Assembly: GCA_030445695.1 (NCBI GenBank)
Contig: JASUTF010000009.1
Location: 1 to 30,136, forward strand
DNA length: 30,136 nt
Source: Candidatus Iainarchaeum sp.
Lineage (GTDB): Archaea; Iainarchaeota; Iainarchaeia; JAADDC01
Direction: 5' to 3'
The stretch's first letter is position 1. Every line of letters starts with the position of its first letter. Made by a program: the position numbers and the translations under genes. Shown here in pieces: positions 1 to 24,098 of this stretch. The notes beneath the pieces are model-generated. The model was not told the DNA's origin. It worked only from the letters and a program-made list of their open reading frames with translations, and made no database searches.

Positions 1-602
1 GGCAGGAATCTCATTCGCACTCCTGCCAGCGCCCCGTAGTTTGCCAGCGCCTCCTCCACCGCATCTTCCCACGGCTGCAATGTCCTGTCTGCGTGCATGA
101 TCGCGTGGAAGATCTCGTGCCGAAGCAGGTAGCCCCAGACGTCAATCATTCCAGGCAGCGGCACCTTTTTCCCCGATGGGAGGAAGCCGAGGTCTTCTTT
201 CCTGTATCTGCTGTCGAATGCAAACGCCGCCAACAGGGAATACCTGTCGATGAGGTCGTAGAACTCCAGCACGCGGTCCGGTGCGATGAGTATCTCCTCC
301 TCCCCGTCCTTCCAGCGGTAGCACGCAACGGGTTTCCAGAACAAGTCACAGGGTTCGACCAGCGCGTTCAGGCGTTCATCGGACGGATTCTCCTCCGCTG
401 CTCGCAGGAGATCTTCGCTCACTTTACGGACGCAGTAGTGCCTGTGCCTGCATGCCTTGTCAATCGTGCTTGCGCTCACCGCACGCACGGGTATCCTGCT
501 CCAGATCCCGTAGACGTCGTCCAGCCACCGGGCGAACGCCTTCCTGTCCAGGTAACGCAGGTCTTCAACGCTCCAACCGCTGTCCAGTTCTTCTGTCCAC
601 AT
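1..602 (-). CDS. Putative zinc metallopeptidase-like protein (HExxH), C-terminus beyond window
   Basis: This is the last visible gene of the minus-strand MoxR/VWA operon and it runs off the left edge, so about 200 residues are seen. Near residue 162 it carries HEIFHAIMH, a gluzincin-type HExxH motif, followed about 13 residues later by a helix beginning WEDAVEEALANY. The Glu residues of that helix could supply the third zinc ligand. The rest is rich in Trp, Tyr and Arg and matches no family I recognise. The ATG at 602 is preceded by GGAGGTGA five bases upstream, a near-perfect ribosome binding site that overlaps the end of the small membrane gene before it. I infer a metal-dependent peptidase or a structural relative. 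The HExxH is direct evidence, but the motif is short and could occur by chance. Confidence 0.6.
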   Translation of the reverse strand, partial: MWTEELDSGWSVEDLRYLDRKAFARWLDDVYGIWSRIPVRAVSASTIDKACRHRHYCVRKVSEDLLRAAEENPSDERLNALVEPCDLFWKPVACYRWKDGEEEILIAPDRVLEFYDLIDRYSLLAAFAFDSRYRKEDLGFLPSGKKVPLPGMIDVWGYLLRHEIFHAIMHADRTLQPWEDAVEEALANYGALAGVRMRFL

Positions 603-607
603 CTTCT

Positions 608-751
608 TCACCTCCACGGCGTGTACGATGCAACCTCGCGCAGCGTCTCTAACAGCACGCCTTTTCCGTATATACCGTCCAACACGACGGCGGCGAACAA
701 AGCAAACAGCAACGCCCCCGCTGTCAGCCAGTCCTTCAACGCTTTGTCCAT
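608..751 (-). CDS. 47-residue single-pass membrane peptide
   Basis: A short open frame of 47 codons fills the space between two operon genes. Its ATG overlaps the stop of the upstream gene by one base (TGATG), and its own stop lies five bases before the next ATG, so it fits the coupling seen along the operon. The product has a polar start (MDKALKDWL), one hydrophobic stretch at about residues 9-26 (mostly Ala, Leu, Phe and Val), then a charged tail ending in SYTPWR. The likely topology is one transmembrane helix. Function is unknown. It could anchor the operon products to the membrane, by analogy with small membrane partners in other AAA+/VWA loci; that is inference. Precise packing between coupled neighbours is the main reason to believe it is translated. 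Confidence 0.6.
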   Translation of the reverse strand: MDKALKDWLTAGALLFALFAAVVLDGIYGKGVLLETLREVASYTPWR

Positions 752-1077
752 CAGACCACCTTTTCCGTTTCGTAATCTATCCTCAGGACCCTCTGGAGCC
801 CCACGGGGATCCTTTTCACGCGGCCGTCGGGCAGCCGGATCGTGCTGGTCCGGAACTGATACACCTGGCCGCCGTTCTCAATGATTTTCTGCACTCTGTC
901 CGGCGGCAGGTCCCCCACGACGGTCAAGCTTCCATGCTGCTGTATCATTTCGAATACTTCCCAGCTCATTATCGTCTTCCGCATCCTGAGTTCTATCTCG
1001 TCTCCGAATGCCCGTGCGAGTATCTCCAGGTGCCTTTTGCTCGGCGGATTCCCACCAACCCAGATTACCACGGTCAT
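751..1077 (-). CDS. Hypothetical protein, 108 aa
   Basis: The start ATG overlaps the stop of the preceding gene (ATGA), and its stop overlaps the start of the membrane peptide, so it belongs to the coupled operon. The N-terminus MTVVIWVGGNPPSKRHLEIL reads as a beta strand, a loop and a helix. A second strand (LTVVGDLPP) follows around residue 51 and a helix (DRVQKIIENGG) after it. This pattern suggests a small Rossmann-like alpha/beta fold, similar in general shape to small proteins of archaeal mobile elements and CRISPR accessory loci such as Csx16. The similarity is only an impression of secondary structure. No catalytic residues are evident and I do not recognise the family. Confidence 0.6.
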   Translation of the reverse strand: MTVVIWVGGNPPSKRHLEILARAFGDEIELRMRKTIMSWEVFEMIQQHGSLTVVGDLPPDRVQKIIENGGQVYQFRTSTIRLPDGRVKRIPVGLQRVLRIDYETEKVV

Positions 1078-1583
1078 TGCGATTCCCCCCTCACGCTGCC
1101 TTCAGCGGATTTTTCAGGAACGAGAAGCTTATCCGTGCCCCACGACCGTTTCACAGCCCCCTTGAAACTGGGATATCCTGCGATTGCCGCGAAGAGCACC
1201 CAGTCCTGGACGCGTTCCGTGTGAGGATCTACCCTGCTTAAATCCGGCACGTCCCCGCCGTTGTAGAACGCGTGTATCGCGAGCGTCGTTTCGTCCGGTT
1301 CCAGTGCAATTGCCAGTTTCGGAATCGTGGTAAGGTCAATGCACTCGAGCGCCACGTTTCCAGCCACGCCCTTGCAGTGCTTGGTGATGGTGAGCGTTTC
1401 CCTGAGAACGAGGGCCCAAGGCGTCCTGTCAGTTCTGAGGACGAACTTGTTTGCCAGTTCCTCCCTGTCCAGAACCGCCATCGCCAGCCGCATGAGTATC
1501 TTGCCCTTCGGCGTGCTGGCTCCCTTTGCCAGCTCCTCTGCCCTGCTCAGCACGCGTCCCCACCACTCTTCAAACTCCACCAT
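1074..1583 (-). CDS. Hypothetical protein, 169 aa
   Basis: This operon gene has two possible starts. A GTG at 1592 overlaps the preceding stop as GTGA, and an ATG at 1583 has a strong GGTGATC site just before it. I prefer the ATG because that site matches the 16S rRNA 3' end well. The product begins with a Trp-rich helix (MVEFEEWWGRVLSRAEELA), has a mixed central region with three nearby Cys and His residues (TKHCKGVAG, LECIDL), and ends in a charged tail. The two cysteines are too isolated to call a metal site. There is no recognised domain. Its value lies in context: it is part of an eight-gene coupled cluster with a MoxR ATPase and a VWA protein, so it is probably a partner or substrate of that ATPase. 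Confidence 0.6.
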   Translation of the reverse strand: MVEFEEWWGRVLSRAEELAKGASTPKGKILMRLAMAVLDREELANKFVLRTDRTPWALVLRETLTITKHCKGVAGNVALECIDLTTIPKLAIALEPDETTLAIHAFYNGGDVPDLSRVDPHTERVQDWVLFAAIAGYPSFKGAVKRSWGTDKLLVPEKSAEGSVRGESQ

Positions 1584-1588
1584 TCCGA

Positions 1589-1804
1589 TCACCCTGCAAA
1601 GACCTGCAGCCGTTTCAGGTAGTCCTTCAGACGGTTGAGCCCCCCGCTCATCAGGGCCAGCCGCATGGCCGTTACGTGATCCAAGGCGGTGCCCACGGGG
1701 TCCACCTCTGACTGCATTGCTATGCGTAGCACCGTGTCCAGTGCGTCCACAACCTCGCGGGCGATTTCTTCCGGATCTTCTGCCTTTCTCCTCTTCGGTT
1801 TCAC
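1589..1804 (-). CDS. Hypothetical small helical protein, 71 aa
   Basis: The frame is open from 1828, but a GTG at 1804 overlaps the preceding stop as GTGA and has GGAGGGG about eight bases upstream. That start gives 71 residues and avoids a 28-base overlap, so I chose it. The product starts VKPKRRKAEDPEE, a basic patch, and the rest looks wholly alpha-helical with alternating hydrophobic residues (DALDTVLRIAMQSE, LDHVTAMRLALMSGG). It could be a small adaptor or a nucleic-acid-binding helical hairpin, but nothing proves either. The family is not recognised. Support for its being real comes from coupling and a good ribosome binding site. Confidence 0.55.
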   Translation of the reverse strand: MKPKRRKAEDPEEIAREVVDALDTVLRIAMQSEVDPVGTALDHVTAMRLALMSGGLNRLKDYLKRLQVFAG

Positions 1805-2379
1805 GGCTTTTTCCCCTCCGTTGCCCACAGCACGTCGGCTGCGAGTGCCAGGTTCGGCTCTATCTTTATCCTGGACGCGGCGAGCATGTGCACGGGGTTG
1901 CCCACCTTAAAGTCCTCCTGCATGGGCAGGTCAAACATCGCCTCGCCTTCGAGGTAGTCCGCCAGGAACCGTGCCACGGGGTCATCCTTCTTTGCCTTCA
2001 ACTGGAGCGTTTCCAGGGCGACTGACAGTTCGCCTTCTACCTCTATTTCCGGATCTCTTCTGCTACCGTATCCCGCGGTGATGCCCTTCATGTCGTCAAC
2101 GTTCACGTCGAATGTGACCTGCTTAGTATCCGGTATTACCGTGATGATCTCTCGGAGCGTTCGCGTGGGCATTCGGCAGAGGTGCATCGTCGCCACGAGC
2201 TTTGAGATCTCGGAAACAGGTATTCCGTAGTATTCAAGCCGTCGCGGGAGTATGTGGCGCCGCAGGATTTCCATGCGCGTCACGAACCTGTCCATTTCCG
2301 TGGCAATGTCCTTTATCCTGCTCATTGCGGAGTGTTGGATGAACTGCCTTGCCCATTCCCTTGCCTCGGGATACGTCAT
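1801..2379 (-). CDS. Hypothetical protein, 192 aa
   Basis: The ATG at 2379 overlaps the stop of the VWA gene (ATGA) and follows a GGTGAG site, so translation is coupled to it. The N-terminal half is helical and basic (residues 1-75). A stretch of alternating beta-type residues follows (ITVIPDTKQVTFDVNVDD), with a short Gly-Tyr-Gly loop (AGYGSRRD), and then an acidic helical C-terminal part. No known motif, signal peptide or membrane segment is visible. Genes placed directly after a VWA gene in MoxR operons often encode partners of the VWA protein, so a binding partner is a reasonable inference, but nothing in this sequence identifies it. Confidence 0.65.
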   Translation of the reverse strand: MTYPEAREWARQFIQHSAMSRIKDIATEMDRFVTRMEILRRHILPRRLEYYGIPVSEISKLVATMHLCRMPTRTLREIITVIPDTKQVTFDVNVDDMKGITAGYGSRRDPEIEVEGELSVALETLQLKAKKDDPVARFLADYLEGEAMFDLPMQEDFKVGNPVHMLAASRIKIEPNLALAADVLWATEGKKP

Positions 2380-3515
2380 ACTCTCACCACCTTTCCAAAG
2401 GGCGGGTTTTCATCCGAGCCCTCCTCCGGAACCGCCCATATCGCCGGTGTCTTCGGCTCCCAATCCGGGAACCTCCCGTAAAGGTCTGTGAAGTATATGA
2501 TCCCGTCTACCCTGAGCTGTTCCGCCTTCTCCAGCGCCTCCACGAAGGACGTTCCGCCCCTCCCGCTCATACTCATGGCCGATTTCACGTCTGACAACTT
2601 CATCACGTCGTGCACCTTCACGTCCGCGGTTATCAGGTATCCCTCCACGTCGTTCGCTTTCATCATCCTCAGAACCTCACACAGGAATTGTGAGAGCATC
2701 TCGTCGCGTATGCTCCCGCTGGTGTCCAAGATCACGGCGAGCTTTGCCCTCCCCCTCGTGTATCCCGGCATCACGATGTCCCTGTAGAGCAGGCGCTTCT
2801 GCGGGCGGCTGTATGACGTGTTCCTGTATGAAATCCTCCGCATGAACGCCGCTATCACGTCCCTCCAGTTCCTTCTGCCCCCCGTCGCCGCAACGTCGCT
2901 CACGTATTCCCCGGGCTTTGCACCGTACTTCCTTGCTTCTTCCTCTACCTGCTGCTTTGCCCGCAGGTATCTCTTCATCCTCTCGCTCTTTGGACACTGC
3001 ACGGACCACTGGAACGTGGCCCCGGATCTCAGATACCTCTTTCCGTCCAGATTCGCGTGCAGCTTAAGGAACGTGGCGATTTCCTCAGCGCTCTTTCTCT
3101 CGCTCACCATCTGCATCAGCGCTTCTGCTTTCTCTCTGCTCAGCCCTGCCTGCCGCAGTGCCCTCAGCACGGCGTATCTCATCTCCTCCGCTGTTTTTGC
3201 CAGGCCGTAGTTTCTGCCCCTCCTCTCTGACAGCATTGTCGTGATGAGGAGATCTGACGCTGCGTGGAACGCGGGGTCATCTGCCCCCCGCCACACGTGC
3301 CCCATAGCCACCTGGAACAGCCCGATCAGTGCGATGTGTGCCGTTAAAGACGATGCGTGGGCTGGAACTGCTATGGTAACCTTTCCGTTTCTGTCCACTG
3401 TTATGCTCGGCGGCTCGTCCCGGCCCCGGCGAACTATCTCCGTTCTCTCCAGCACGCCCTGAAGGTAGGGGAAATGGGTCTTTACTATCTCACGCAGTCT
3501 TGACTTCGCGAGCAC
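2376..3515 (-). CDS. DUF2201/COG3864-type VWA protein with degenerate peptidase-like N-domain
   Basis: The C-terminal part is a clear von Willebrand A-like domain of the DUF2201 type. It shows MIDAS motif DTSGS at residues 264-268, GRGGTSFVEAL near 340, IIYFTDLYGRFP near 357, and a family-typical ending with Trp and PPFG. The N-terminal part resembles the metallopeptidase-like domain of that family (ADDPAFHAASDLL around residues 78-90). However, the position where relatives have HExxH reads IGLFQVAMGH, so the zinc site is lost. The start is a GTG with GGGAGG about four bases upstream, and it overlaps the MoxR gene by 26 bases. VWA proteins of this class normally work with a MoxR ATPase, here the upstream neighbour, as chaperone-like pairs acting on a third protein. 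The family call is firm; the biological role is not known. Confidence 0.85.
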   Translation of the reverse strand: MLAKSRLREIVKTHFPYLQGVLERTEIVRRGRDEPPSITVDRNGKVTIAVPAHASSLTAHIALIGLFQVAMGHVWRGADDPAFHAASDLLITTMLSERRGRNYGLAKTAEEMRYAVLRALRQAGLSREKAEALMQMVSERKSAEEIATFLKLHANLDGKRYLRSGATFQWSVQCPKSERMKRYLRAKQQVEEEARKYGAKPGEYVSDVAATGGRRNWRDVIAAFMRRISYRNTSYSRPQKRLLYRDIVMPGYTRGRAKLAVILDTSGSIRDEMLSQFLCEVLRMMKANDVEGYLITADVKVHDVMKLSDVKSAMSMSGRGGTSFVEALEKAEQLRVDGIIYFTDLYGRFPDWEPKTPAIWAVPEEGSDENPPFGKVVRV

Positions 3516-4602
3516 TTTCCTCCCCCCTTAGCAGGGAAACAATGTGCGGGGGCACCCTGTTTCCTACGATGAGCATCACGAACACTCTTCTGTCCATCTC
3601 CCTTATTTTCCAGAGCAACTGCACGTGGTACTCGTCTTCCAGGACGTTCTTCACCCTGTCGTAGTACTCCGGATCGCGGACAATCTTCCTCGCCAGTGCC
3701 CTGATCGTTCCCACCTTCCATCTGTCCGGCCTGCTCTTCCATATGCTCTCGAAGTTCTCCCAGTCCATTTCCCTCCTCTCGAGGAACTCCATGAACTCCA
3801 GCGCCGCCTCCACGCCCACTAGCCCCACCACCGTGGCGAACCATTCCTGCTTCTGCCCGCCGTCGTAGAGGTCCATGTGGTGCGAGACGAACTCCCACGT
3901 TCTGGGCGACGGGAAGTTCCTGTCGGCGAAAACGGGCACGTAGAGTTTTCCCGTCTCCTTTACGAACTCGATTACCCTTTTGTCAATCCCGTTCTCCTCA
4001 GCCCACCTCAGCCATGCGTCCATGTCCGGCACCACGTTGTATATGGCCATCCTGTTCCTCAGAGGCGCTGCCATCTCTTCAACGAACGCCCCGTCCTCTT
4101 CCCTGTTCCCCGCAGCGACCACCATCCAGCCCTCCGGCAGGCGGTAGGAGCCCACCTTCCTCTCCAGTATGAGTTGATACAGCTGCGACTGTATGTGCGG
4201 CGGCGCGAGGTTTATCTCGTCCAGGAAGAGTATTCCCTGCCCCTCTCTCGGCAGGAAGTCGGGCAGCATCCACGTCGTCGCCTTTCTTTCCCTGTCAGGG
4301 AAGGGCACGCCACGAACGTCCGCTTCCCCCAGCTGCGATGCCCGCAGGTCGATGACCGTGAAGTAGTTCTCCCCTACCTCGTCCTCCCTGAAATCAAGCC
4401 CCATCTTCTCTGCTATGATTTTTGCCGCTTCCCTGACCGCCATGCTCTTTCCTATGCCCGGGGGACCGAAGAACAGCCGCGAAACCCGTCTTTTTCTCTC
4501 GTCCAGATAGCTATTTACGAGTATCGACACCATTGTATCTACGGTGATGTCGGTGTCGTACCTGTTGTGCAGAGGTATGTTACCACCATCGCCAGGTACC
4601 AT
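3490..4602 (-). CDS. MoxR-family AAA+ ATPase
   Basis: This is a AAA+ ATPase of about 370 residues. Numbering from the upstream GTG at 4611, it has Walker A GPPGIGKS at 49-56, Walker B ILFLDE at 127-132, a sensor-1 Asn in AAGN near 169, and an arginine-finger region PLRNR near 183. These features and the partner VWA gene place it in the MoxR group, whose members remodel or insert cofactors into target proteins. I chose the ATG at 4602 because GGTGA lies five bases before it; the GTG at 4611 has no such site. It is the first gene of the operon. A weak TATA-like CAATAAC around 4637-4645 on the minus strand could be its promoter. The C-terminal region lacks any extra domain. Confidence 0.9.
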   Translation of the reverse strand: MVPGDGGNIPLHNRYDTDITVDTMVSILVNSYLDERKRRVSRLFFGPPGIGKSMAVREAAKIIAEKMGLDFREDEVGENYFTVIDLRASQLGEADVRGVPFPDRERKATTWMLPDFLPREGQGILFLDEINLAPPHIQSQLYQLILERKVGSYRLPEGWMVVAAGNREEDGAFVEEMAAPLRNRMAIYNVVPDMDAWLRWAEENGIDKRVIEFVKETGKLYVPVFADRNFPSPRTWEFVSHHMDLYDGGQKQEWFATVVGLVGVEAALEFMEFLERREMDWENFESIWKSRPDRWKVGTIRALARKIVRDPEYYDRVKNVLEDEYHVQLLWKIREMDRRVFVMLIVGNRVPPHIVSLLRGEESAREVKTA

Positions 4603-4694
4603 ATTCCTCACCGTAGAAAATATGGAGGGAGGTTATTGAAAAAGGAACTTCATTGAAAATTCGAACTCAATGTATGAAATTCTTACTACAACAT

Positions 4695-4702
4695 TTATAA
4701 GC
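4695..4702 (+). promoter_or_regulatory. TATA box for the 4723 gene
   Basis: TTTATAAG is centred about 25 bases before the ATG at 4723, the spacing expected if transcription starts at the start codon. No ribosome binding site is present, so a leaderless mRNA is inferred. The motif is nearly symmetric and could also face the MoxR operon, but it lies too far from that start. Confidence 0.55.
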
Positions 4703-4722: not shown

Positions 4723-5832
4723 ATGGGAGAATCCGGGCAAATTCCGTTCCGCGACGCCCGTCTTGAAAAGTATCTGGCTTTTTCAGAGCGGATATATCGG
4801 CCCGCGGATGTAATAAGGGAGGTTATGGGTAACGCCTACTTTTTGGTGCGATATTCTCTGGGCGGGAGGCAAAACGTGGCGCCATTCCCTATATCGGAGC
4901 TTGCAGCTTATTTCTTTGAAAAGGATGGTAGTATTAGTGAAGAAGGCATTCCCGTTGATGCACCCGAGCTTCCGGACGAATATCCAGACCTTGTGAGTGT
5001 ATATTTAGAAGCTCTGAGTAAGATTCGCCCAGCTTCACGAAAAAATACCGTTGTGCTTTCCAACAAGCAGTGGAAAGAACAGATAGAGAAGCTATTTCCG
5101 CGACAGAGCGATAAACCACATCTCTGCGCATGCATGCCCGCAATTTATGTTGCGTACGGCGAAAATACGTTGGATTACTGGGGAATATACTTCAATATGC
5201 CCATTCTTGCAGATCTTTTCTTCAACATCTCCAACAAGGATCGTCCAACGTTCGTGCACACCGCATATGCTCTCGTAAGAACCGTTTCTGACTCTCTTGG
5301 CAATCGTTTGCTGGCGGATGTTTCGGTGGAAGAGATTATCGAGGATGGCTGGCGTTCATTTATCACTTTCTGGGCAAACTACTGGCTGGCCATTCACGTC
5401 CTTCAGGATATTTACATGCTGGATGGGAAGTTAGACGATTTTGAGCACCTCTTTGACCTGGAACACCTCGACGCCTTCCGTTTTGCGACCATTGCGGCTT
5501 TGCTGGAAGGCAAGAGCTTTGGTGCACAGGTCGTGGCGAGGCCTCTTCTGGATGCCTTCAAAGAGGTCGGTTCCCGTAAAAAAACGCAATCCCTGTCTGC
5601 AGATGAGCGGAAACTTCTTGATGCCATATTCCGCGTTTCCGCTTTCCTGACGAGCTACGACTATATCTCCGGCCCCGACTATCTGCCTGCGGTGTCTCAG
5701 TCGCTTCTGGGTGCAATCAATGGCAGGTGGTCAGCGTACTGGCTTGCCCACGCCTCCGGAACCGCTGACCCGATTCTCATAAAAACGGGTGATAGGTACC
5801 GGGGCGTGAGAGGGTTTGTCAGGCAATTGTAA
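4723..5832 (+). CDS. Hypothetical protein, 369 aa, in an AT-rich island
   Basis: I do not recognise this protein. It is a soluble, mostly helical product with many aromatic residues, such as GYLVRY-like and FWANYWLAIHVLQDIYMLDG segments. A possible flexible linker lies near residue 85 (acidic, with Pro). There is no signal peptide, membrane helix or clear catalytic motif; the CACMP near residue 138 is isolated. The ATG was chosen because a TATA box sits about 25 bases upstream. Base composition is more AT-rich than in the chaperonin or GatDE genes, and the gene shares this with the methyltransferase that follows 147 bases downstream. That suggests joint acquisition. It could be the specificity or effector partner of the methyltransferase, but this is only positional inference. 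Confidence 0.7.
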   Translation: MGESGQIPFRDARLEKYLAFSERIYRPADVIREVMGNAYFLVRYSLGGRQNVAPFPISELAAYFFEKDGSISEEGIPVDAPELPDEYPDLVSVYLEALSKIRPASRKNTVVLSNKQWKEQIEKLFPRQSDKPHLCACMPAIYVAYGENTLDYWGIYFNMPILADLFFNISNKDRPTFVHTAYALVRTVSDSLGNRLLADVSVEEIIEDGWRSFITFWANYWLAIHVLQDIYMLDGKLDDFEHLFDLEHLDAFRFATIAALLEGKSFGAQVVARPLLDAFKEVGSRKKTQSLSADERKLLDAIFRVSAFLTSYDYISGPDYLPAVSQSLLGAINGRWSAYWLAHASGTADPILIKTGDRYRGVRGFVRQL

Positions 5833-5979: not shown

Positions 5980-8088
5980 ATGTACATTGTGGATAAAGAA
6001 AGAGCGATAGAGCAAGATTTTCCGATGTCTGAAATCAATAGGATCAGCGTGTCTGAGAGAATAGCCCTTAAACCAATATATATGATGCATCGCATTTTCG
6101 CAAGGCGTGTGGGGTCTGTTTTCCGTGCAATCATTCTGGGAGCACTAAAGGACGCGGGTACAGACATCATGAAGGAGTTCTATCGTTCTCACAGAGACGA
6201 TCCGGATACTGTAGGCAAAGTGATTCTCGACCCCATGTGCGGGGGAGGCACGACTCTCGTAGAGGGATCTCGCCTTGGTGCTACGGTTATAGGGATCGAT
6301 ATTAATCCCATTCCATGGTTTGTAACGAAATGTGAGTTGACTGTAGTGGATCCAAATAAGCTAAGGGATGCTTTTGTAAAGTTAGAGCAAACAGTTGGTA
6401 AGAAAATAAAGGAAATGTATACAACGAAGTGCCCGTATTGCGGAAGGGACGCGGAAATCATATATACTTTTTGGATAAAACACGTGGATTGCCCAAAATG
6501 TGGGAGAAAGGTAGATCTATTCAAGGACTTCGTTGTTACGTATGATAAGAAAGAAACGGAATACTACATCGTTTGCCCAGAGTGCAAGCACGTTTTCCGG
6601 TTGGATCATGCTCCTGGTGAACGAGAGGTTTGCCCCGCCTGTGGGCACGAGTTTTCCCCTAACAAGGGCTTCGTGGTGAATAATCATGTTACCTGCCCGC
6701 ATTGTGCCCACGAATTTCGTGTTGTTGATGTTCTGCGCGAACAAGAGTCGCCCCCTGAAGCGACACCATACGCGATTGATGGGTGGTGTCCTCACTGTAA
6801 GCGTCGTTTTGTCAAGGGGTTCGATGAGGATGACCTTGCACGGCTTCAACGGGTAGAGCACGAATTCGAGGAAAAGAAGGAATCTTTGCTGTTTCCCAGA
6901 GATCCCATACCAGACGGATACAATACTAACCAGATGAAAAAGCACAACTACAGATACTGGTATCAGATGTTTAATAAGAGGCAGCTTCTAGCCCTTTCGC
7001 TTCTTCTTGACGAGATCCGTAAAATAGAGGATCAGGATATTAGAGAACTGTTTTTGCTTGCGTTTTCCGAAACTTTAAGATCCAACAATATGTTCTGCTA
7101 TTATGATAAGCGCTGGGCGAAACAACTAACGCCGTTGTTTGCTCGGAAAGATTTCGCACCGGTAAACTTTCCACTGGAACAGAATGTTTGGGGCAGCAGG
7201 TTTGGGAGGGGTTCATTTGTACAAGTATTTGGGAGATTGCTTCGTGGTAAAGAGTATAATCTTCGCCCCTTTGAGCGGGTGTACTCAGGTAAGAGCGTGA
7301 AGAGAGTATATCTTGATGAAGTTATCGGCGATGCCCCGTGGGCAGTGTATTGTATGGATGCGCAGTATCTTGATAGCGCGGTTAAGACGAAGGTAGATCT
7401 TGTTGTAACAGATCCACCATATTTTGACAGCATCAACTATTCGGAGACGTATGATTTCTTTTACGTTTGGTTAAAGCAAGTACTTGATTACCCCTGGTTC
7501 AAAAGAGACACTACCATACATCCCTCTGAAGTCATTGTGAACAAGGTGCACGGAAAAACGGAGGAAATGTTCAAGCAGAAGTTAACTAACATATTTCGAA
7601 GGGCCGTGAGCGTGTTGCGTGATGACGGTCTCTTCATATTTACGTTCCACGATATTGATCCCGCTGCCTGGAAGCATATGCGGGAGATTGTTAGTGCTGC
7701 TGGCCTGCGCGTTGTAAAAATCCACTTTTATCATGGTGAAAATGTGAGTGCGGGCCATTTTGGCGGTCAAAAAAGTGTTTTCGATAGTATCTGGGTTTGT
7801 AGGAAGAAGTCGTGGGCAAAGGGGAGGCACCGTATTTCTCTGAGCGATGCTGTTTCACATATACTGCGGGAAGTTGAGGGTGTTGTTGCCGCAGTAAAAA
7901 AGAGCAGATACTTTAAACTTGACGAAAACGATCTGCGCGTCTTTGTATATGGCAAGACCGTAGAGATACTTGAGAGATATGCGGTTCCCGAAGATTTTGA
8001 CGAAATCGTGCGGATTGTGTTAGATGATGAACGCCTACAGGGCATTCTGGAGCACAAGGCCGGTCGCAGGATTACGGATTATCTATGA
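5980..8088 (+). CDS. DUF1156/COG1743-type adenine-specific DNA methyltransferase with zinc ribbons
   Basis: The product is a SAM-dependent amino-methyltransferase. The N-terminus resembles DUF1156 (IYMMHRIFARRVGSVFRA, near residue 33). The SAM motif DPMCGGGT is at about 84-91 with GIDINP at 105-110, and the catalytic VTDPPY is near 476-481. The order SAM motif, middle region, DPPY is the alpha-class arrangement. The middle carries several Cys pairs (CPYC 151, CPKC 171, CPEC 199, CPAC 218, CPHC 239 and 270) forming about three zinc ribbons, likely for DNA recognition. No nuclease or ATPase gene of the DUF499/DUF1156 defence type is adjacent. The start is uncertain: ATG 5980 is listed, but the TATA position favours ATG 6025 (Met16). 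The stop overlaps the convergent gene by 10 bases. Composition is AT-rich relative to the flanks, which suggests transfer. Confidence 0.85.
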   Translation: MYIVDKERAIEQDFPMSEINRISVSERIALKPIYMMHRIFARRVGSVFRAIILGALKDAGTDIMKEFYRSHRDDPDTVGKVILDPMCGGGTTLVEGSRLGATVIGIDINPIPWFVTKCELTVVDPNKLRDAFVKLEQTVGKKIKEMYTTKCPYCGRDAEIIYTFWIKHVDCPKCGRKVDLFKDFVVTYDKKETEYYIVCPECKHVFRLDHAPGEREVCPACGHEFSPNKGFVVNNHVTCPHCAHEFRVVDVLREQESPPEATPYAIDGWCPHCKRRFVKGFDEDDLARLQRVEHEFEEKKESLLFPRDPIPDGYNTNQMKKHNYRYWYQMFNKRQLLALSLLLDEIRKIEDQDIRELFLLAFSETLRSNNMFCYYDKRWAKQLTPLFARKDFAPVNFPLEQNVWGSRFGRGSFVQVFGRLLRGKEYNLRPFERVYSGKSVKRVYLDEVIGDAPWAVYCMDAQYLDSAVKTKVDLVVTDPPYFDSINYSETYDFFYVWLKQVLDYPWFKRDTTIHPSEVIVNKVHGKTEEMFKQKLTNIFRRAVSVLRDDGLFIFTFHDIDPAAWKHMREIVSAAGLRVVKIHFYHGENVSAGHFGGQKSVFDSIWVCRKKSWAKGRHRISLSDAVSHILREVEGVVAAVKKSRYFKLDENDLRVFVYGKTVEILERYAVPEDFDEIVRIVLDDERLQGILEHKAGRRITDYL

Positions 8089-9167
8089 CATTCACCGGGA
8101 GGCGGGAATATGCCCTCCGGGTCTATTGTGTATTCAATCCTGCCCCTAGAAGTTATCGCTAGAGATACTGGACATTCACGTATTGCACGATTGTAGTCTC
8201 TTGCACGCAGATTATTACTTGTGATCGTCCTCTTTTCTAGATGAAAAACGTGCAGGTGCGCATCCGTTACAGGCCAAAGATCGCGTTTAAACTCCCAGTT
8301 AAATTGGTTGCTGAGATATTCTAAATATTGTATCAGTGCGGATTGAGTAGCTTCTCGAAGCGAATGCTGCTGCCCCCTTTCGTACAAATCTTCCCGGAGG
8401 TTTAGCTTACCTTGCTTCTGTCTTCCTCCTACATCTTTCCAGATGTCCGAGAGCGTGTTAAAGAAACGGCGCATCATCTTCATCGATTCTATCAGCGATA
8501 ATTTCTTTCCGCCCGTATCTTGAGTGTTGCCCAGGATTCGTATCACCGGGTTCTTCTCATCCATCTTTGTGAGGAATTCCAACCAGGAAAGACAATTTTC
8601 TGGATAGTTGAACATGTTCTTAAACACTCCATCTGCGTAAATAGTCGGCGCGAGTGCATTCTTACTGTCGAAATCGAACGCACGCTGATCTTTGTGGATG
8701 AGATACAGCAGTGATAGCAAAAGATGGAATGTGCCAAAAGGATATTTTTTGCTGAAGTCCTGTTGTACGTCGTAGTTCCTTAGAATATTTGGTTGGATGC
8801 ATACCTTTTCTATGCTCTTGATGAGTTCAGGCACGTCATCCTTTCGTCTTACGATCATATGGTGACCTATGCTGGGGATGCTCGGCCGTAGAATTTCCAC
8901 ATCAATGAACGCGTATTTAGTTAGATCTGGTGTGCCCTTTTCTTCGTCTATTCTGTTGTGATCTTCAAGTATTGCCAGTGTTCTACCGTCGTAGAATCCA
9001 ACCACTTTCCATCTATTGATTACGTTTAACAGGAGTGCAGAAAGAAATCCATCAGTATCCGGGCTTATAATCATTCCATCTATCTCTTCTCGGTTTTTAT
9101 ATATCCATTCGTATTTTCTACCCGTCTTTATGTCGGGGACTATCTCATGTATGTGTGAAACACTCAT
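8079..9167 (-). CDS. DHH-like protein of unknown function, 362 aa
   Basis: The N-terminal region reads like a DHH phosphoesterase start: SPDTDGFLSALLL at about residues 36-48 (DxDG type), VVGFYDGRTLAIL after it, then YAFIDVEI near 86, and SIGHHM near 101 where DHH proteins have their DHH triplet. The last is GHH here, so the metal site is altered. The remaining 250 residues are helical and unfamiliar, with Gln-rich and aromatic stretches. It converges on the methyltransferase with a 10-base overlap and shares its AT-rich composition. A role in nucleic acid or nucleotide cleavage alongside the methyltransferase is inferred. The DHH relation rests on motif spacing only. The start ATG at 9167 follows a TATA-like box at 9193-9201. 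Confidence 0.6.
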   Translation of the reverse strand: MSVSHIHEIVPDIKTGRKYEWIYKNREEIDGMIISPDTDGFLSALLLNVINRWKVVGFYDGRTLAILEDHNRIDEEKGTPDLTKYAFIDVEILRPSIPSIGHHMIVRRKDDVPELIKSIEKVCIQPNILRNYDVQQDFSKKYPFGTFHLLLSLLYLIHKDQRAFDFDSKNALAPTIYADGVFKNMFNYPENCLSWLEFLTKMDEKNPVIRILGNTQDTGGKKLSLIESMKMMRRFFNTLSDIWKDVGGRQKQGKLNLREDLYERGQQHSLREATQSALIQYLEYLSNQFNWEFKRDLWPVTDAHLHVFHLEKRTITSNNLRARDYNRAIRECPVSLAITSRGRIEYTIDPEGIFPPPGECHR

Positions 9168-13619: not shown

Positions 13620-14114
13620 ATGCCTGCACTGACAGGGGAAGATGTTGCCCGCTACGTTTCTGAGTATGTGAAGGTAAACCCCGCAGGCGTGGATATCGCC
13701 CCGAAGAAGATTTACAGAATTCCAGAAAATGTTGATGCCGTTCTGGATGGAAGAATAAGGGGATTCACGCGCGGTGAGGAAGTGACGTGGGACGTGTACG
13801 AAGAAATTGCCCCGAAGAACGGCTACTGGGTTCTGGAACCGGGCATTTACGTGGTAGCGTTCCCCAAGGTGGTTGTTCCAAAGGACGTTGTCGGTTTTGC
13901 ATACCCCCGGAGCACGTTGAACCGTCTTGGCCTTGTTAAAGTCCAAACGGCGGTCTTTGATCCGGGCTACGAGGGAGAGTTCACGCAGACCTGGCTCGTC
14001 CCCATACGCGCGAGAATACGCGTCGGTGAGGCGTGGGTGCAGCTGGTCTATATCCGTCTTGAGCGTGAGGCGAAGGAAGGGTATAACGGCTACTGGCAGG
14101 GGGAAATGCATTGA
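13620..14114 (+). CDS. dCTP deaminase/dUTPase-superfamily protein
   Basis: The 164-residue product has the family marks: GVDIAP near residue 23, AYPRSTLNRLGL near 95, and AVFDPGYEG near 114. Enzymes of this group deaminate dCTP or hydrolyse dUTP and so keep uracil out of DNA; archaea often have one that does both. In E. coli Dcd the segment after DPGWSG holds the catalytic Glu (E138). Here the matching stretch reads EFTQTWLV, apparently with Thr at that place. This suggests dUTP hydrolysis rather than deamination, or an altered site. That alignment is by eye. The start at 13620 is based on TATA spacing and on the family's usual N-terminus. Its stop overlaps the next ATG by one base (TGATG), so it is coupled to the PlsY-like gene. 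Confidence 0.82.
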   Translation: MPALTGEDVARYVSEYVKVNPAGVDIAPKKIYRIPENVDAVLDGRIRGFTRGEEVTWDVYEEIAPKNGYWVLEPGIYVVAFPKVVVPKDVVGFAYPRSTLNRLGLVKVQTAVFDPGYEGEFTQTWLVPIRARIRVGEAWVQLVYIRLEREAKEGYNGYWQGEMH

Positions 14115-14515
14115 TGCAGTATGTCATTGACGCGATTGCGGGTTACCTGCTCGGATCTCTGACGTTCTGCCAGATCTTCGCCCGTCTGAGAGGGAAGGAT
14201 CTCGGGAACAACCTCGGCGGCTCTGCGTATCTGCAGGTTACCCAGGACAAGGCGGGCGCTGTGGTTTGCGTTCTGCTCGACGTGCTGAAGGGTGCTGCCG
14301 CTTTTTACTTCTTCGGGCCAGTGGGCGCTGTCTTCGCGGTGATCGGTCACATGTGGTCTCTGTTCTTTGGGTTCCGCGGCGGCAGGGGCGGGGCAACCAC
14401 TGCAGGCATTTTCCTGCTTGCTGACTGGAGGATACTTGTGCTTTACGTTCTTTACACGGTTGCACGCCTTCCGTTTATCCGGGAGCGTGAAAAGAGGGAA
14501 GAGTTCGATCAATGA
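14114..14515 (+). CDS. PlsY-like membrane protein A, ended by an in-frame TGA
   Basis: This hydrophobic protein matches the PlsY (DUF205) glycerol-3-phosphate acyltransferase pattern: AGYLLGSLTF near residue 9, LLDVLKG near 52, and GHMWSLFFGFRGGRGGAT near 76. PlsY transfers acyl groups from acyl phosphate in the membrane. The substrate motif around residue 30 (LGNNLGGSA) departs from the usual GSGNxGATN. The frame stops at a TGA (14513-14515) after 133 residues, whereas bacterial PlsY has about 200 and the paralog at 15158 has 172. Reading past the TGA gives 36 more residues with two hydrophobic stretches, so the gene may be broken or mis-sequenced. A GTG or TTG just upstream is less likely than the ATG coupled to the previous stop. 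Archaea are not known to make ester-linked lipids by this route, so the substrate is open. Confidence 0.75.
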   Translation: MQYVIDAIAGYLLGSLTFCQIFARLRGKDLGNNLGGSAYLQVTQDKAGAVVCVLLDVLKGAAAFYFFGPVGAVFAVIGHMWSLFFGFRGGRGGATTAGIFLLADWRILVLYVLYTVARLPFIREREKREEFDQ

Positions 14516-14626: not shown

Positions 14627-15183
14627 GGGCTGTCCTGTTCGCCGATGCGCACATACACGATGCGGAGACGGCAGAGCTCGTCCATCGTTTCCTCGATGAG
14701 AAGAACGACGTCTATTTTCTGGGGGATATGTTTGACGGCCCGGAGGACATGGCCAAGTACGACGGGTTCCTCGAAAAGTATGACTTTGTCTGGCTGAAGG
14801 GGAACCACGACTACTGGATGGACCTCCCCGAGCGTGTGGAACTTGGTGATTACGTTCTGACGCACGGGCACAAAGTTCTTCCCACGTGGAAAGTGGAACG
14901 GTATTTCGTTAAGTACACGCCAGCTGCACAGCGTTTTGGTCTCTTCGGCCCTGCCATGTCCTTTAGTCGACTTCTGAGGGGCAGCCCACTTGAGCGTTAC
15001 TTCGGGGATGCGGTTCTGCGGCTAAAGAGCATTTTGAGGGGCTCGGAGCGACGCCCGGTGATTATGGGGCACCTGCACCACTATCTGGTGAAGGATAATA
15101 TTGTTGTCCTGCCCCGTTTCCCCGAGTATGCGGTTCTTCGGGGTTCCCGCCTGGAGATCAGGAACTACCTTGACGAAATCTGA
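14623..15183 (+). CDS. LpxH-like calcineurin-type metallophosphatase
   Basis: The 186-residue product has the full metallophosphatase set: ADAHIHD near residue 7, LGDMFDG near 36, KGNHDYW near 60, THGHK near 82, and MGHLHH near 146. These residues bind two metals. The size and the C-terminal part resemble the LpxH/UDP-diacylglucosamine hydrolase group, but archaea do not make lipid A, so a different phosphodiester substrate is likely. I chose ATG 14623: a GGTGAGATC site lies just before it and it overlaps the PlsY-like frame's second stop. An upstream ATG at 14512 is in frame but adds an unrelated basic stretch. It sits between two PlsY-like genes, which suggests a lipid or envelope role; this is inference. 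Its end overlaps the convergent gene by 26 bases. Confidence 0.82.
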   Translation: MRAVLFADAHIHDAETAELVHRFLDEKNDVYFLGDMFDGPEDMAKYDGFLEKYDFVWLKGNHDYWMDLPERVELGDYVLTHGHKVLPTWKVERYFVKYTPAAQRFGLFGPAMSFSRLLRGSPLERYFGDAVLRLKSILRGSERRPVIMGHLHHYLVKDNIVVLPRFPEYAVLRGSRLEIRNYLDEI

Positions 15184-15676
15184 CGTAGTAGAACCAGGCA
15201 TGGCGGAGAAGTAGGATAACGTAGGCGGGAACCGCATACGTGTAAATCACTGCCGGAACACCCCTGATTAGCAGGTAAATGAGGTGTCTCCACTTCGTTC
15301 GCAGAATTCTGGACGTGAAGAACTCAGAGATTGCACAGAGGAGAACGAGCTCCGGGGTTATGGCGAAGAGTCCTCCGTAGTATACGGATACGGCGTTTCC
15401 ACCCCGAAACCCGAAGAACAGGGGAAACATGTGCCCAAGCATCGCCACAACGAGCCCCCAGACACCGAAGAAGTGGTATGCGATAAGTCCCTTTGCGGCG
15501 TCCAGCACGCCGAGAACGACGAAAAGAACGGGGGATTTCGTGGCGGTGTATATGCTCGTTGCGCCTAGATGTCCCTCGCCGTCGCGGTGCAGGTCTATTC
15601 CCCTTATCTTTGCGTAGAGCCCAGGGAAGGAAACGGAACCCAGAAGGTATGATACGAAGATACCGAGAATGTCCAT
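15158..15676 (-). CDS. PlsY-like membrane protein B
   Basis: This 172-residue integral membrane protein follows the PlsY pattern closely: SYLLGSVSF near residue 9, GEGHLGATS near 33 (consensus GSGNxGATN), LDAAKG near 58, and GHMFPLFFGFRGG near 80. The conserved GGKGxAT of motif 3 reads GGNAVSVYYG, so the basic residue is lost. It is about 25 residues shorter than bacterial PlsY. About five hydrophobic segments are visible. Paralog A on the other strand has motif 3 but a changed motif 1. Transcription likely starts at the ATG, from a TATA box shared with the glycosyltransferase gene. It may act on glycerol-phosphate or archaeal lipid precursors, or be a non-catalytic paralog. The acyltransferase activity is not established. 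Confidence 0.75.
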   Translation of the reverse strand: MDILGIFVSYLLGSVSFPGLYAKIRGIDLHRDGEGHLGATSIYTATKSPVLFVVLGVLDAAKGLIAYHFFGVWGLVVAMLGHMFPLFFGFRGGNAVSVYYGGLFAITPELVLLCAISEFFTSRILRTKWRHLIYLLIRGVPAVIYTYAVPAYVILLLRHAWFYYVRFRQGSS

Positions 15677-20469: not shown

Positions 20470-22800
20470 TTATTTGAGTAACTCCTTGACGATTCTTGCC
20501 ACGACGCTGCCAGGTGCCTTGCCCTTCAGCTCCGCCATGGCTCTGCCCATGATTACGTTCATCCTCGGCTCTTCTCCGCGCTCCTTGAACTCGGTAATGA
20601 TTCTCTGAACGACTTTGCGTATCTTCTCCTCGTCCAGCATCTCAATGCCCTTCTCTTTCAGCACTTCGTCCAGTGTTTTGCCCTTGGCGAGTTCTGGCAC
20701 GATCTCGTCCAGCGCTTCCTTCGGATACTTCTTGTTGTATCCGTGAATGAGTTCCCTTATTTGCTCTTCACTGAGTTCCCAGCCCTGACGTTTCCAGTAT
20801 GGCAGGAACGTGAGGAGGATGTTTGCCGCCGTCTTCGGGTCTGCCCCCTCTTTAACGACATCGTCAAAGAGGAAGACATAGCGCGATTTGATTAACGTCT
20901 TGGCCTGCTCCTCGTTCAGGCCCATCTTCCTGAACTCTTCGTAGCGCTCCTCTGGTAGGGGTGGCAGGTTCGCCCGTATCTTCTCCAATCGCTCCTCCGT
21001 TATGAACACGGGTGGGACGTCCGTCTCCGGGTACATGCGTGCTGCTCCGGGTAATGGGCGCATGAAGCGTGTTGTTCCGTCCGGGTTTGGCCCCCTCGTC
21101 TCCTCTGGAACGCCGTGCAGCGCTTTCTTCAATCTCTCCTTCACCACTTCAAGCGCCTTTCTTGCCTTTTCTTCCTTGTCAACGACAATGATGAAAGCAT
21201 CGTCCTCGTTACAGTTGAGTGCCGTTCTAACTGCTTTCACTTCTTCTTCGGTGATTCCGTACTTGGGCAGCTCGTCCGAGTGAAGAATGCCACCTACTTT
21301 TGCGTAGACCTTTGCATAGTCCGACAGTTCTGTCCCGAAACGCCTGCCGTTCTGTATCTCCTTTCCTATGAGCCCCTGCATTCTGGGGACGCGGATGGCG
21401 AGTGCCTTTCCACCGCTCTGGATTGTTTTCCTGACGAACTTCGCTTCTGTGTTTTCAAAGATCTCCGTGACGTCCACGATGTCCTGCTCGAAGTCCTTTT
21501 CTGTCAGACCACGGTTCTTCATCTCATCACGTATTTCAAGAAGCCCTAACTGTCTTCTCACTTCGTTCTTTACGTATTCTGGGATCAGGTCCAGTTCCTG
21601 CGCGCCTTTTATCTCTATTCGTGCGCCGCCACGGATGGAGATGTTTATGTCCTGACGGATCGTTCCTATGCCGCGTTTGACCTTTCCCGTTGCCCTTAAA
21701 ATTATGCCGATGCGTTCTGCGGCGTCGCGGACCTCTTCTGGCGTGTGCATGTCCGGACCCGTGGCTATTTCAACGAGAGGAACGCCCAGACGGTCCACGC
21801 GGTAAACGATATACTCGTCAGTTCTCTCTATGGGGCGTGCGGAGTCCTCCTCCAAACAAATGGTCTGTATGCGAATGGGCGCCAGTTTGCCCTCTATTTG
21901 TCCATCTGTGGCGACGAGCATGGTTCTTTGAAATCCGGACGTGTTGGATCCGTCAATGACGATCTTGCGCATGACCTGAATGGCGTCCACGGGCCGTGCC
22001 TTCACCAGTTCGGCGAACGTTAGCGTTATATCCAGTGCTTCCTCGTTGGGCATGTGTGGCGGTTCTTCGTCCAGTTCAACGAGACAGGTGGTGTCCGTAT
22101 ATGCCTGATATATGTATTTCCTGCCCTTCTTGAACTCGGCGAGGGCTGCTGGGTCAAATGTTCCCATCTCCGACGCTACAGGCCGCTGGAAACGCTCGAC
22201 CACCACGTCTGGCTCGTCGTCGCGAAGAATGGACGGGCAGGAGCAGAAGAGCTTGTGCGTGTCCAGTTGTTGGTGTATCTCGATCCCGCTCTTCAGTCCG
22301 ACCAGATAGTATTCGATGTTCTTCACGAAGTACTCTGCTTTTTCTTTCAGTTCGTCCAGCGTCCCGTTGTTCTCCACGATTATGTCTGCTATTTCTCTTA
22401 TCCTGTCGAGCCCGCGTGCCCTGTCTTCCTCCTCTCTTTCCGGGTCTGCTCCTCGCTCTCTTCTTATCTTTTCGTCTGCCTCGATCCAAACGATCGCATG
22501 TTTTGGGAAGTTATCCTTTACGAACTGAACTTCGCCCACTGTGCGGGGGCCGACCAGAATGATGGTCTCTTCACCTGCTTCCTCTGCGATCGTTAGGGCA
22601 TAGCGGGTCAGGTAGTCATCTCCTTTTTCCTTTCTCCACCTGTCTGCAATTTTCCCCAGTTCCTTCTTGTCCTTTATATCCCTTCCGGCGATTGCCCTGA
22701 TGAGTTCCGAATACACGATCTTCTTCCACGGCAGGTGAGACGCAAAGGAGTCCTTTCCCGAGCGTGGATAGCCCGCGACGATGATCACGTTCATGAGCAT
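20470..22800 (-). CDS. gatE: GatE with an N-terminal P-loop kinase domain (fusion)
   Basis: The main part is archaeal GatE, subunit E of Glu-tRNA(Gln) amidotransferase. It starts near residue 166 with LVGLKSGIEIHQQLDTHKLF and ends with a YqeY-like tail (PRMNVIMGRAMAEL). With GatD it converts Glu-tRNA(Gln) to Gln-tRNA(Gln). The first about 160 residues are an added P-loop kinase: GYPRSGKDSFA at 11-21, an R-rich lid (WIEADEKIRRERGADPE), and IVENNGTLDELK near 143. It resembles dephospho-CoA or nucleotide kinases. GatE alone is about 620 residues; this protein has 776. The Walker A ends in GKD, seen in some nucleotide kinases. The start ATG 22800 overlaps the gatD stop (TGATG); ATG 22794 is also possible. 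Both parts read without a break, so the fusion appears real. Confidence 0.9.
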   Translation of the reverse strand: MLMNVIIVAGYPRSGKDSFASHLPWKKIVYSELIRAIAGRDIKDKKELGKIADRWRKEKGDDYLTRYALTIAEEAGEETIILVGPRTVGEVQFVKDNFPKHAIVWIEADEKIRRERGADPEREEEDRARGLDRIREIADIIVENNGTLDELKEKAEYFVKNIEYYLVGLKSGIEIHQQLDTHKLFCSCPSILRDDEPDVVVERFQRPVASEMGTFDPAALAEFKKGRKYIYQAYTDTTCLVELDEEPPHMPNEEALDITLTFAELVKARPVDAIQVMRKIVIDGSNTSGFQRTMLVATDGQIEGKLAPIRIQTICLEEDSARPIERTDEYIVYRVDRLGVPLVEIATGPDMHTPEEVRDAAERIGIILRATGKVKRGIGTIRQDINISIRGGARIEIKGAQELDLIPEYVKNEVRRQLGLLEIRDEMKNRGLTEKDFEQDIVDVTEIFENTEAKFVRKTIQSGGKALAIRVPRMQGLIGKEIQNGRRFGTELSDYAKVYAKVGGILHSDELPKYGITEEEVKAVRTALNCNEDDAFIIVVDKEEKARKALEVVKERLKKALHGVPEETRGPNPDGTTRFMRPLPGAARMYPETDVPPVFITEERLEKIRANLPPLPEERYEEFRKMGLNEEQAKTLIKSRYVFLFDDVVKEGADPKTAANILLTFLPYWKRQGWELSEEQIRELIHGYNKKYPKEALDEIVPELAKGKTLDEVLKEKGIEMLDEEKIRKVVQRIITEFKERGEEPRMNVIMGRAMAELKGKAPGSVVARIVKELLK

Positions 22801-24098
22801 CACCAGAACGCATCCGGACGCGAGCGTTTCGTTATCTCGCCCGCATAGTTCGTGAGCATGATCTCCTTCACCTTTTCCCTATCCTTCGAATGACCCAGCG
22901 CCCACATGAGCTTAACGAGGGCCGTTTCGGGAAGCATGTCCTCCAAGTAAACGGCACCGGCTTCCATCATCTTAACGGCCGTCGAGTAGACGTGTGGGTG
23001 TACTCTCCCGAACAGGGGTTGTGGCGTTATCCCTACAAAAACACCGCTCTCCGTCGCCTCTGCTATCACGGGAATTAGTTCCTGTCTGACGTGGCCGAGG
23101 CCTGTCCCCTCGATGATCACACCGTCGTGGTTCAGCAGTATGTGCTCGAATATGTCTTTCCGTAGTCCCGGGAACGACTTGAGCAGGAAAACGTTGGAAT
23201 TCGCCTTCGCATCTATCTTGAATCCTTTCTGTCCCCGCTTCTCGAACTCATGGCGCCAGATCTTGATCTTTCTATCCACAATTTTTCCACCCTTTGTTAC
23301 GACGAGGGAACGGCCCACTGGTTTATCCCCAACCGTCTTGAACGTGTCTCTCCTGCTCGTGTGCATCTTCCTCGCTCTTGTGCCCGGGTGTATTGTCGTC
23401 CATGCATCGTCCATTGTTTCGTGCATGACGATGAAGGTTCCTGCGAGATCCGAATTCACGGCCACGTTTATGGCGTTGAGCAGGTTGATCGCCGCGTCGG
23501 AGGACGGTCTGTCTGAAGAACGTTGGGCACCGACGAGGACAACGGGTACTGGAACGTTCTGCAGCGCGAAGGAAAGGAATGCGGCGGTGTAGTGCATGGT
23601 ATCCGTCCCGTGGGTAATTACAACGCCGTCAACCCCGTTTTTAATCATCTCCCCGACGCCCTTCGCTATCCTTACCCAGTAGTCGGGCATCATATCCTCG
23701 GAGAAGATGTTGGACACCTGTTTGAGTTTAAGGTTAGCCAGTTCGGCGATTTCAGGGAACGATAGTAAAAAGTCCTCAGCAGTGAACTCTGCCACCACTC
23801 CACCCGTTTTGTAATCCACGCGCGACGCAATCGTCCCCCCCGTTGCGACCAACGCGGCGGTGGGCAGTTCTGGATTGTGCTCAACCTTTATCGGGGCGGA
23901 ATATTTTTTGGGCGGTTCTCCCTTCTCCAGAATTCTTATCTCCGTTTCAGGGGTGATCTTTATGCCGATGTTGTAGCCGTTCTTCAGTTTTATCATCAGA
24001 ACGTTGTCTGGTATTTCCTCCGTGCGCGGGAGAACGGTTCCCCTATACGTAACGCCGTTTTTGACGACCTCGACAACGTCACCCGGTTCAAGTGCCAT
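22800..24098 (-). CDS. gatD: Glu-tRNA(Gln) amidotransferase subunit D
   Basis: GatD is an asparaginase-like subunit that releases ammonia from an amide donor for the amidation done by GatE. The product of 432 residues has an N-terminal beta-rich domain (VVEVVKNGVTYRGTV). It is followed by the asparaginase-like catalytic motifs GGTIAS at 87-92 and HGTDT at 163-167, then further core segments GAQRSSDRPSSDAA and GTGLGHV. The frame is open 41 codons upstream, but those codons are not family-like. ATG 24098 begins the typical start (MALEPGDVVEV), and a TATA box lies about 27 bases before it. It is coupled to gatE. The two genes have their own promoter inside the end of the upstream gene. Confidence 0.95.
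   Translation of the reverse strand: MALEPGDVVEVVKNGVTYRGTVLPRTEEIPDNVLMIKLKNGYNIGIKITPETEIRILEKGEPPKKYSAPIKVEHNPELPTAALVATGGTIASRVDYKTGGVVAEFTAEDFLLSFPEIAELANLKLKQVSNIFSEDMMPDYWVRIAKGVGEMIKNGVDGVVITHGTDTMHYTAAFLSFALQNVPVPVVLVGAQRSSDRPSSDAAINLLNAINVAVNSDLAGTFIVMHETMDDAWTTIHPGTRARKMHTSRRDTFKTVGDKPVGRSLVVTKGGKIVDRKIKIWRHEFEKRGQKGFKIDAKANSNVFLLKSFPGLRKDIFEHILLNHDGVIIEGTGLGHVRQELIPVIAEATESGVFVGITPQPLFGRVHPHVYSTAVKMMEAGAVYLEDMLPETALVKLMWALGHSKDREKVKEIMLTNYAGEITKRSRPDAFW

Follow-up and report, generated by a model that had tools for sequence, protein, structure and literature searches.

MoxR proteins form ATP-driven rings, and VWA proteins bind a client through their MIDAS site. Pairs of the two are very common AAA+ modules, and their clients are mostly unknown. 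One such pair, a MoxR ATPase with a DUF2201-type VWA protein, corresponds to phage families PHROGs 1297 and 1314, which we take to be, probably, core genes 24 and 25 of phage N4. In jumbo phages the pair comes with a metallopeptidase domain and has been proposed to act in virion assembly (PMC7824862). MoxR–vWA ternary conflict systems have VMAP, iSTAND, FtsH or a beta-propeller as their third core part, and their vWA proteins often carry fused effectors (Kaur et al. 2020, PMC7159879), and vWA–MoxR–VMAP genes have been reported near type III CRISPR/CARF loci (PMC10910872).

The locus described here lies at the left end of a 30,136-nucleotide stretch of DNA (the window), which makes up all of contig C12 in the genome assembly (G000; 664 kb, 88.6% complete) of a tiny, uncultured archaeon. 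With all frames checked, the minus strand from 1 to 4611 proved to be filled by eight open frames forming one coupled operon (Table 1). The MoxR and VWA genes overlap by 26 bases, VWA/p3 and p5/p6 by ATGA, and p3/p4 and p4/p5 by GTGA, with p4 starting at 1804 and p5 at, or a few bases after, 1592; p6 and p7 meet in TGATG, and a 5-base gap after GGAGGTGA stands between p7 and p8. The operon is truncated inside its eighth gene, p8, where the contig ends at base 1, leaving this frame without a stop codon. The initial annotation had described these eight open frames with the same overlaps and gap; its extent of 1–4602 holds for the operon, with the MoxR start corrected to about 4611/4602, and omits the divergent gene.

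Table 1 Features of the operon and its divergent neighbour in the window
Feature	Coordinates	Strand	Basis or remarks
MoxR-type AAA+ ATPase, 373 aa	3490..4611	-	Pfam AAA_5, phrog_1297, Walker A/B, 64% identical to G003
DUF2201-type VWA protein, 379 aa, MIDAS DTSGS	2376..3515	-	PF09967, phrog_1314
p3, 192 aa, family unrecognised	1801..2379	-	Likely counterpart at this position in G003; similarity in C-terminal third
p4, 71 aa, family unrecognised	1589..1804	-	Weak likeness to 65-aa protein directly upstream of p5 in G003
p5, 172 aa, family unrecognised	1074..1592	-	Small protein best conserved in G003
p6, 108 aa, family unrecognised	751..1077	-	Window only
p7, 47-aa single-pass membrane peptide	608..751	-	Hydropathy and 48-aa G003 counterpart
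p8, at least 200 aa, HExxH protein (zincin-like motif), truncated by contig end	3..602	-	
Divergent gene, 369 aa, family unrecognised	4723..5832	+	Counterpart in G003
16-base element	4685..4700	.	Same in window and G003; MoxR strand reads TTATAAATGTTGTAGT

The first two genes belong to known families. MoxR has Walker A (GPPGIGKS, 49–56) and Walker B (LFLDE) motifs and matches Pfam AAA_5 (E = 4.8e-7, 30.3 bits against a cut-off of 22) and the phage ATPase family phrog_1297 (1.7e-70). The VWA protein carries its MIDAS motif at 264–268 and matches PF09967 (6.6e-25, 88 bits against a cut-off of 26.4) and phrog_1314 (1.4e-36), for which the PHROGs label 'HNH endonuclease' is not supported by the domains found here. 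Relatives of MoxR were found in 800 phage records, in 41 viral contigs and, within the GTDB genome collection, in 291 stretches, the best 80 of which came mostly from Campylobacterota. The earlier description of the two as a known pair thus agrees with their Pfam and PHROGs matches and with their occurrence in hundreds of phages, many bacteria and archaea. In a MoxR tree the two Micrarchaeota sequences grouped together, alone on a long branch, and viral and cellular origins were not separated. The pair is also present in the Diapherotrites genome G064, where it lies beside phage-type genes (locus L006 on contig C31; phrog_4652, 3.4e-25) in what is likely a virus or provirus.

Like the phage pair, the window pair consists of neighbouring genes of these same two families, but its VWA protein has no recognisable N-terminal metallopeptidase part. 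The corresponding domain, DUF2201_N (PF13203), could be recognised neither there nor in the VWA protein of G003, the relative described below, and no HExxH was found in the window protein; PF13203 was found in the VWA proteins of L006, L020 and L092. We rejected the idea that loss of HExxH sets this lineage apart, as 40 of 71 MoxR-linked VWA proteins also lack it. The locus further differs from the phage pair in its host-like codon use and in six additional genes, for which no phage relatives were found.

These six genes, p3 to p8, are new: none matches a known family in the libraries searched, and five partners had been called unrecognised from the outset. Searches of p3–p8 against Pfam and PHROGs, of p3, p6 and p8 against NCBIfam, and of p3–p6 and p8 against PADLOC gave no significant match, PDB sequence searches gave no real match for those partners tried, and PADLOC, a defence library, returned nothing beyond generic ATPase matches for the operon. 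We found p6 neither in the libraries searched nor in phage records, and p8 had no match in libraries, PDB, phage records or the other genomes of the window genome's family. AlphaFold models of p8 from its single sequence (pLDDT 49) and of p5 from two sequences (pLDDT 43) were too poor for use. Two of the six have telling features, both proposed earlier and both present. One strong hydrophobic segment marks p7 as a membrane peptide (best 19-residue Kyte–Doolittle mean of 2.18, all other operon proteins staying below 1.7), and the HExxH at the operon end is the HEIFH of p8, at residues 167–171 of a 205-residue frame, with 0.01 occurrences expected from the protein's own composition. HEIFH is followed by EEALANY, a pattern suggestive of a zincin.

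The locus resembles the MoxR–vWA ternary systems (PMC7159879) in that a MoxR/vWA core shares an operon with further partners, and some of those systems are connected with a zincin and with a gene for a small peptide. It differs from them in that its VWA protein has no recognised fused effector domain, and no Pfam (E up to 1) or NCBIfam (0.5) match to VMAP, iSTAND, FtsH or a beta-propeller was found in the operon. The initial annotation had known of no described system with this whole set, and we too found no description in the literature searched.

Among 87 genomes of Micrarchaeota, the phylum of the window genome, only one other shares the set: G003, a Candidatus Micrarchaeota assembly placed in the same genus. 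Its locus (L005) lies on contig C36 (JALTCQ010000036.1; 9.4 kb, 3x coverage per its title) and reads divergent gene, MoxR, VWA, p3-like, two unmatched small proteins, p4-like, p5, p7-like, so that the order MoxR, VWA, p3, p4, p5, p7 is conserved (64%, 42%, 32%, 24%, 49% and 39% identity, respectively). By alignment, the counterparts of MoxR, VWA, p5 and p7 are certain: p5 matched with an E value of 1e-48 and was found in no other of the 87 genomes, and p7 scored above 500/500 shuffles against the G003 peptide at the same place, whose best 19-residue hydropathy mean is 2.32. The weaker matches of p3 (local alignment above 499/500 shuffles; 32% identity over a MAFFT alignment) and of p4 (global alignment above 500/500 shuffles, local above 499/500) were accepted as likely counterparts, most unrelated pairs tried as a control having come nowhere near 499/500. 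Co-occurrence of at least four members, set beforehand as support for a system, was therefore found once, with four certain and two likely members in G003. We found no counterpart of p6 or p8 on the G003 contig, which places the possible protease, included in the complex as first proposed, outside the conserved core. The case for calling the locus a system comes from two genomes of a single genus and concerns a core that is widespread and well known; the three further genomes of the genus examined lack the operon, as does nearly all of the phylum.

Conservation extends to the divergent gene. It had no Pfam match, and among the 87 genomes it is present only in G000 and G003, where a 53% identical and likewise divergent counterpart lies at 525–10 of L005. 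The longest word common to the two intergenic regions between the divergent gene and MoxR is the 16-base element of Table 1 (best of 500 shuffles, 13 bases). The element is best read as a candidate promoter of the divergent gene, since its TATA-like part lies around 26 bases before that gene's ATG.

In G003 the operon continues unbroken, on the same strand, into cas6–cas8b–cas7–cas5–cas3 of a type I-B system. A 68-aa gene lies between the p7-like gene and cas6, with ATGA and GTGA overlaps at the junctions, and matches were found to Cas6 (4.7e-27), Cas8b/TM1802 (Pfam, 9.3e-63), Cas7/Csh2 (7.5e-72), Cas5 (4.7e-41) and the start of the Cas3 HD domain (3.4e-7). The unit thus ends in genes of a known type I-B (TM1802/Csh family) system, but nine non-cas genes precede them. 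At 3x coverage the contig could conceivably be an assembly chimera, but the overlapping junctions argue otherwise. From this arrangement the G003 module, ahead of and translationally coupled to the type I-B operon, is probably co-expressed with immunity genes. No MoxR–DUF2201 operon continuous with type I-B cas genes was reported in the literature searched. Linkage of MoxR–vWA genes to CRISPR recalls the vWA–MoxR–VMAP loci (PMC10910872), but in G003, the one genome concerned, the genes adjoin a type I-B effector operon, and no CARF or VMAP was recognised in the operon. The CRISPR link is a single-locus observation: cas linkage is seen in one of the two loci, the other, that of the window, stopping at its contig end after p8 has followed p7 where G003 has the 68-aa gene and cas6. 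No cas genes similar to those of G003 were found in the other MoxR-bearing loci compared.

We then compared codon use with the long open frames of the window genome, some of which may be spurious, scoring G003 on the same set. The MoxR-to-p8 genes measured were host-like (61st–87th percentile), and G+C stands at 58% in the operon against 55% in the genome; on these grounds a recent viral origin is not obvious. The divergent gene (4th percentile) was not host-like, nor were the csm genes of the window genome and the cas genes of G003 (0.3–15 percentile). Since the cas genes look foreign in codon use and the MoxR genes do not, module and cas genes appear to have different histories.

We tentatively favour, at a probability of roughly 0.4, a host-resident MoxR–VWA remodelling module with lineage-specific partners, of the conflict or defence type. 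MoxR would form the ATP-driven ring, to which the VWA protein would present a client through its intact MIDAS site; p3, p4 and p5 would serve as adaptors or clients of the ring and p7 as the membrane tether of the assembly, with p8, where present, perhaps adding a metallopeptidase output. We infer these adaptor, tether and defence roles. Such a module is suggested by the shared gene order and junction overlaps in G003, by the continuation into cas genes and by the intact motifs and membrane segment, as well as by the host-like composition and by the published MoxR–vWA conflict systems and CRISPR-adjacent vWA–MoxR genes; against it stand its restriction to two loci of one genus and the foreign-like codon use of the cas genes, which may have been joined to it by chance insertion. 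Host-like codon use would equally suit a housekeeping maturation chaperone, in which the pair, as NorQ–NorD or CbbQ–CbbO do, would activate a host enzyme or envelope protein or supply it with cofactors, with the small proteins as its subunits or clients. MoxR–VWA pairs do occur among ordinary chromosomal genes, for example in the archaeon of L020 and the Campylobacterota of L092, and p7 suggests membrane work. Yet the operon has no enzyme gene, it is missing from the three other genomes of the genus and nearly all of the phylum, and its neighbours at 5980–9167 are a phage-type methyltransferase and an orphan of atypical codon use, making this explanation rather unlikely.

It is unlikely that the pair is a viral or mobile module, a virion-assembly chaperone as proposed for jumbo phages (PMC7824862) and Acidianus two-tailed virus, either as a remnant in the chromosome or at the border of a provirus severed by the contig end. 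The matches to phrog_1297 and phrog_1314, the relatives in 800 phage records and the viral-looking Diapherotrites locus, which groups with viral MoxRs, all fit this explanation. However, no structural, packaging or integrase gene was recognised in or beside the operon, and no structural or packaging gene anywhere on the window and G003 contigs, the left side of the window being truncated; searches turned up neither p5 nor the divergent gene in viral contigs and neither p6 nor p8 in phage records, and G+C and codon use are host-like. The unbroken G003 operon could also be taken to mean that the module is a dedicated CRISPR accessory servicing the crRNA complex or nuclease, the window copy having served cas genes lost in an assembly gap. 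At the end of one of its contigs the window genome does have csm genes and a CRISPR array, and its assembly shows no cas6. We hold this to be very unlikely, given the one instance, the different codon use of the two operon halves, the ends of C4 and C12, which share no overlap, and p8 sitting where cas6 would be expected; that a membrane-tethered MoxR–VWA remodeller with dedicated partners makes up the leading half of a type I-B cas operon, regulating or recycling the interference complex of an ultra-small archaeon, is equally doubtful. The locus is most likely a membrane-tethered module that is defence-associated in one genome. The conserved small partners and membrane peptide are concrete adaptor candidates, the cas run-on in the relative makes a defence role directly testable, and, if the linkage proves recurrent, an ATP-driven remodeller would be added to type I CRISPR systems.

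The window genome has CRISPR genes of another type. On contig C4 (19501–38169, locus L176), a type III-A csm operon with an upstream CARF-like gene precedes the CRISPR array that ends the contig (11898–18669 of the locus; repeat containing CTCAACCCCTAACGGTGATTTCTCGAC). The csm genes matched Cas10/Csm1 (2.1e-60), Csm3 (1.3e-55) and Csm5 (6.4e-13), and the CARF-like gene matched Csx14/Crn1 models below cut-off. With every contig of the assembly covered, Cas6 was not found, and neither Cas7 nor the other type I-B genes of G003 have a relative there. The ends of C12 and C4 share no overlap by which the contigs could be joined. The repeat was found in G000 only, and the idea of one shared between the genomes was discarded. 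A CRISPR-like repeat near MoxR in L092 had no cas-like frame among the open frames listed, and was likewise set aside. A cas6 contig of another same-genus assembly (G002 contig C80, L197) was rejected as a second instance: G002 has no MoxR match, and the locus, judged by reading, is of the type III csm kind and encodes Cas6, a pair of CARF-like proteins and Cas1, possibly on a contaminating bacterial contig.

Elsewhere in the window, a DUF1156-like DNA methyltransferase gene (5980–8088, plus strand; phage family phrog_10183, 4.7e-117) is overlapped at its end by an orphan gene (8079–9167, minus strand). Both are AT-rich and not host-like in codon use (percentile 0.9 for the orphan), so the two are likely a recent arrival, and from its composition the operon looks like a long-standing resident with newer arrivals next to it. 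By reading, the gene at 20470–22803 (minus strand) encodes a GatE-type amidotransferase subunit that carries an additional P-loop kinase-like part (GYPRSGKDS) at its N terminus, possibly an unusual fusion. Two similar small membrane proteins (GHM..LFFGFRGG), PlsY-like by reading, are encoded at 14111–14515 (plus strand) and 15158–15676 (minus strand), with a phosphoesterase-like gene between them.
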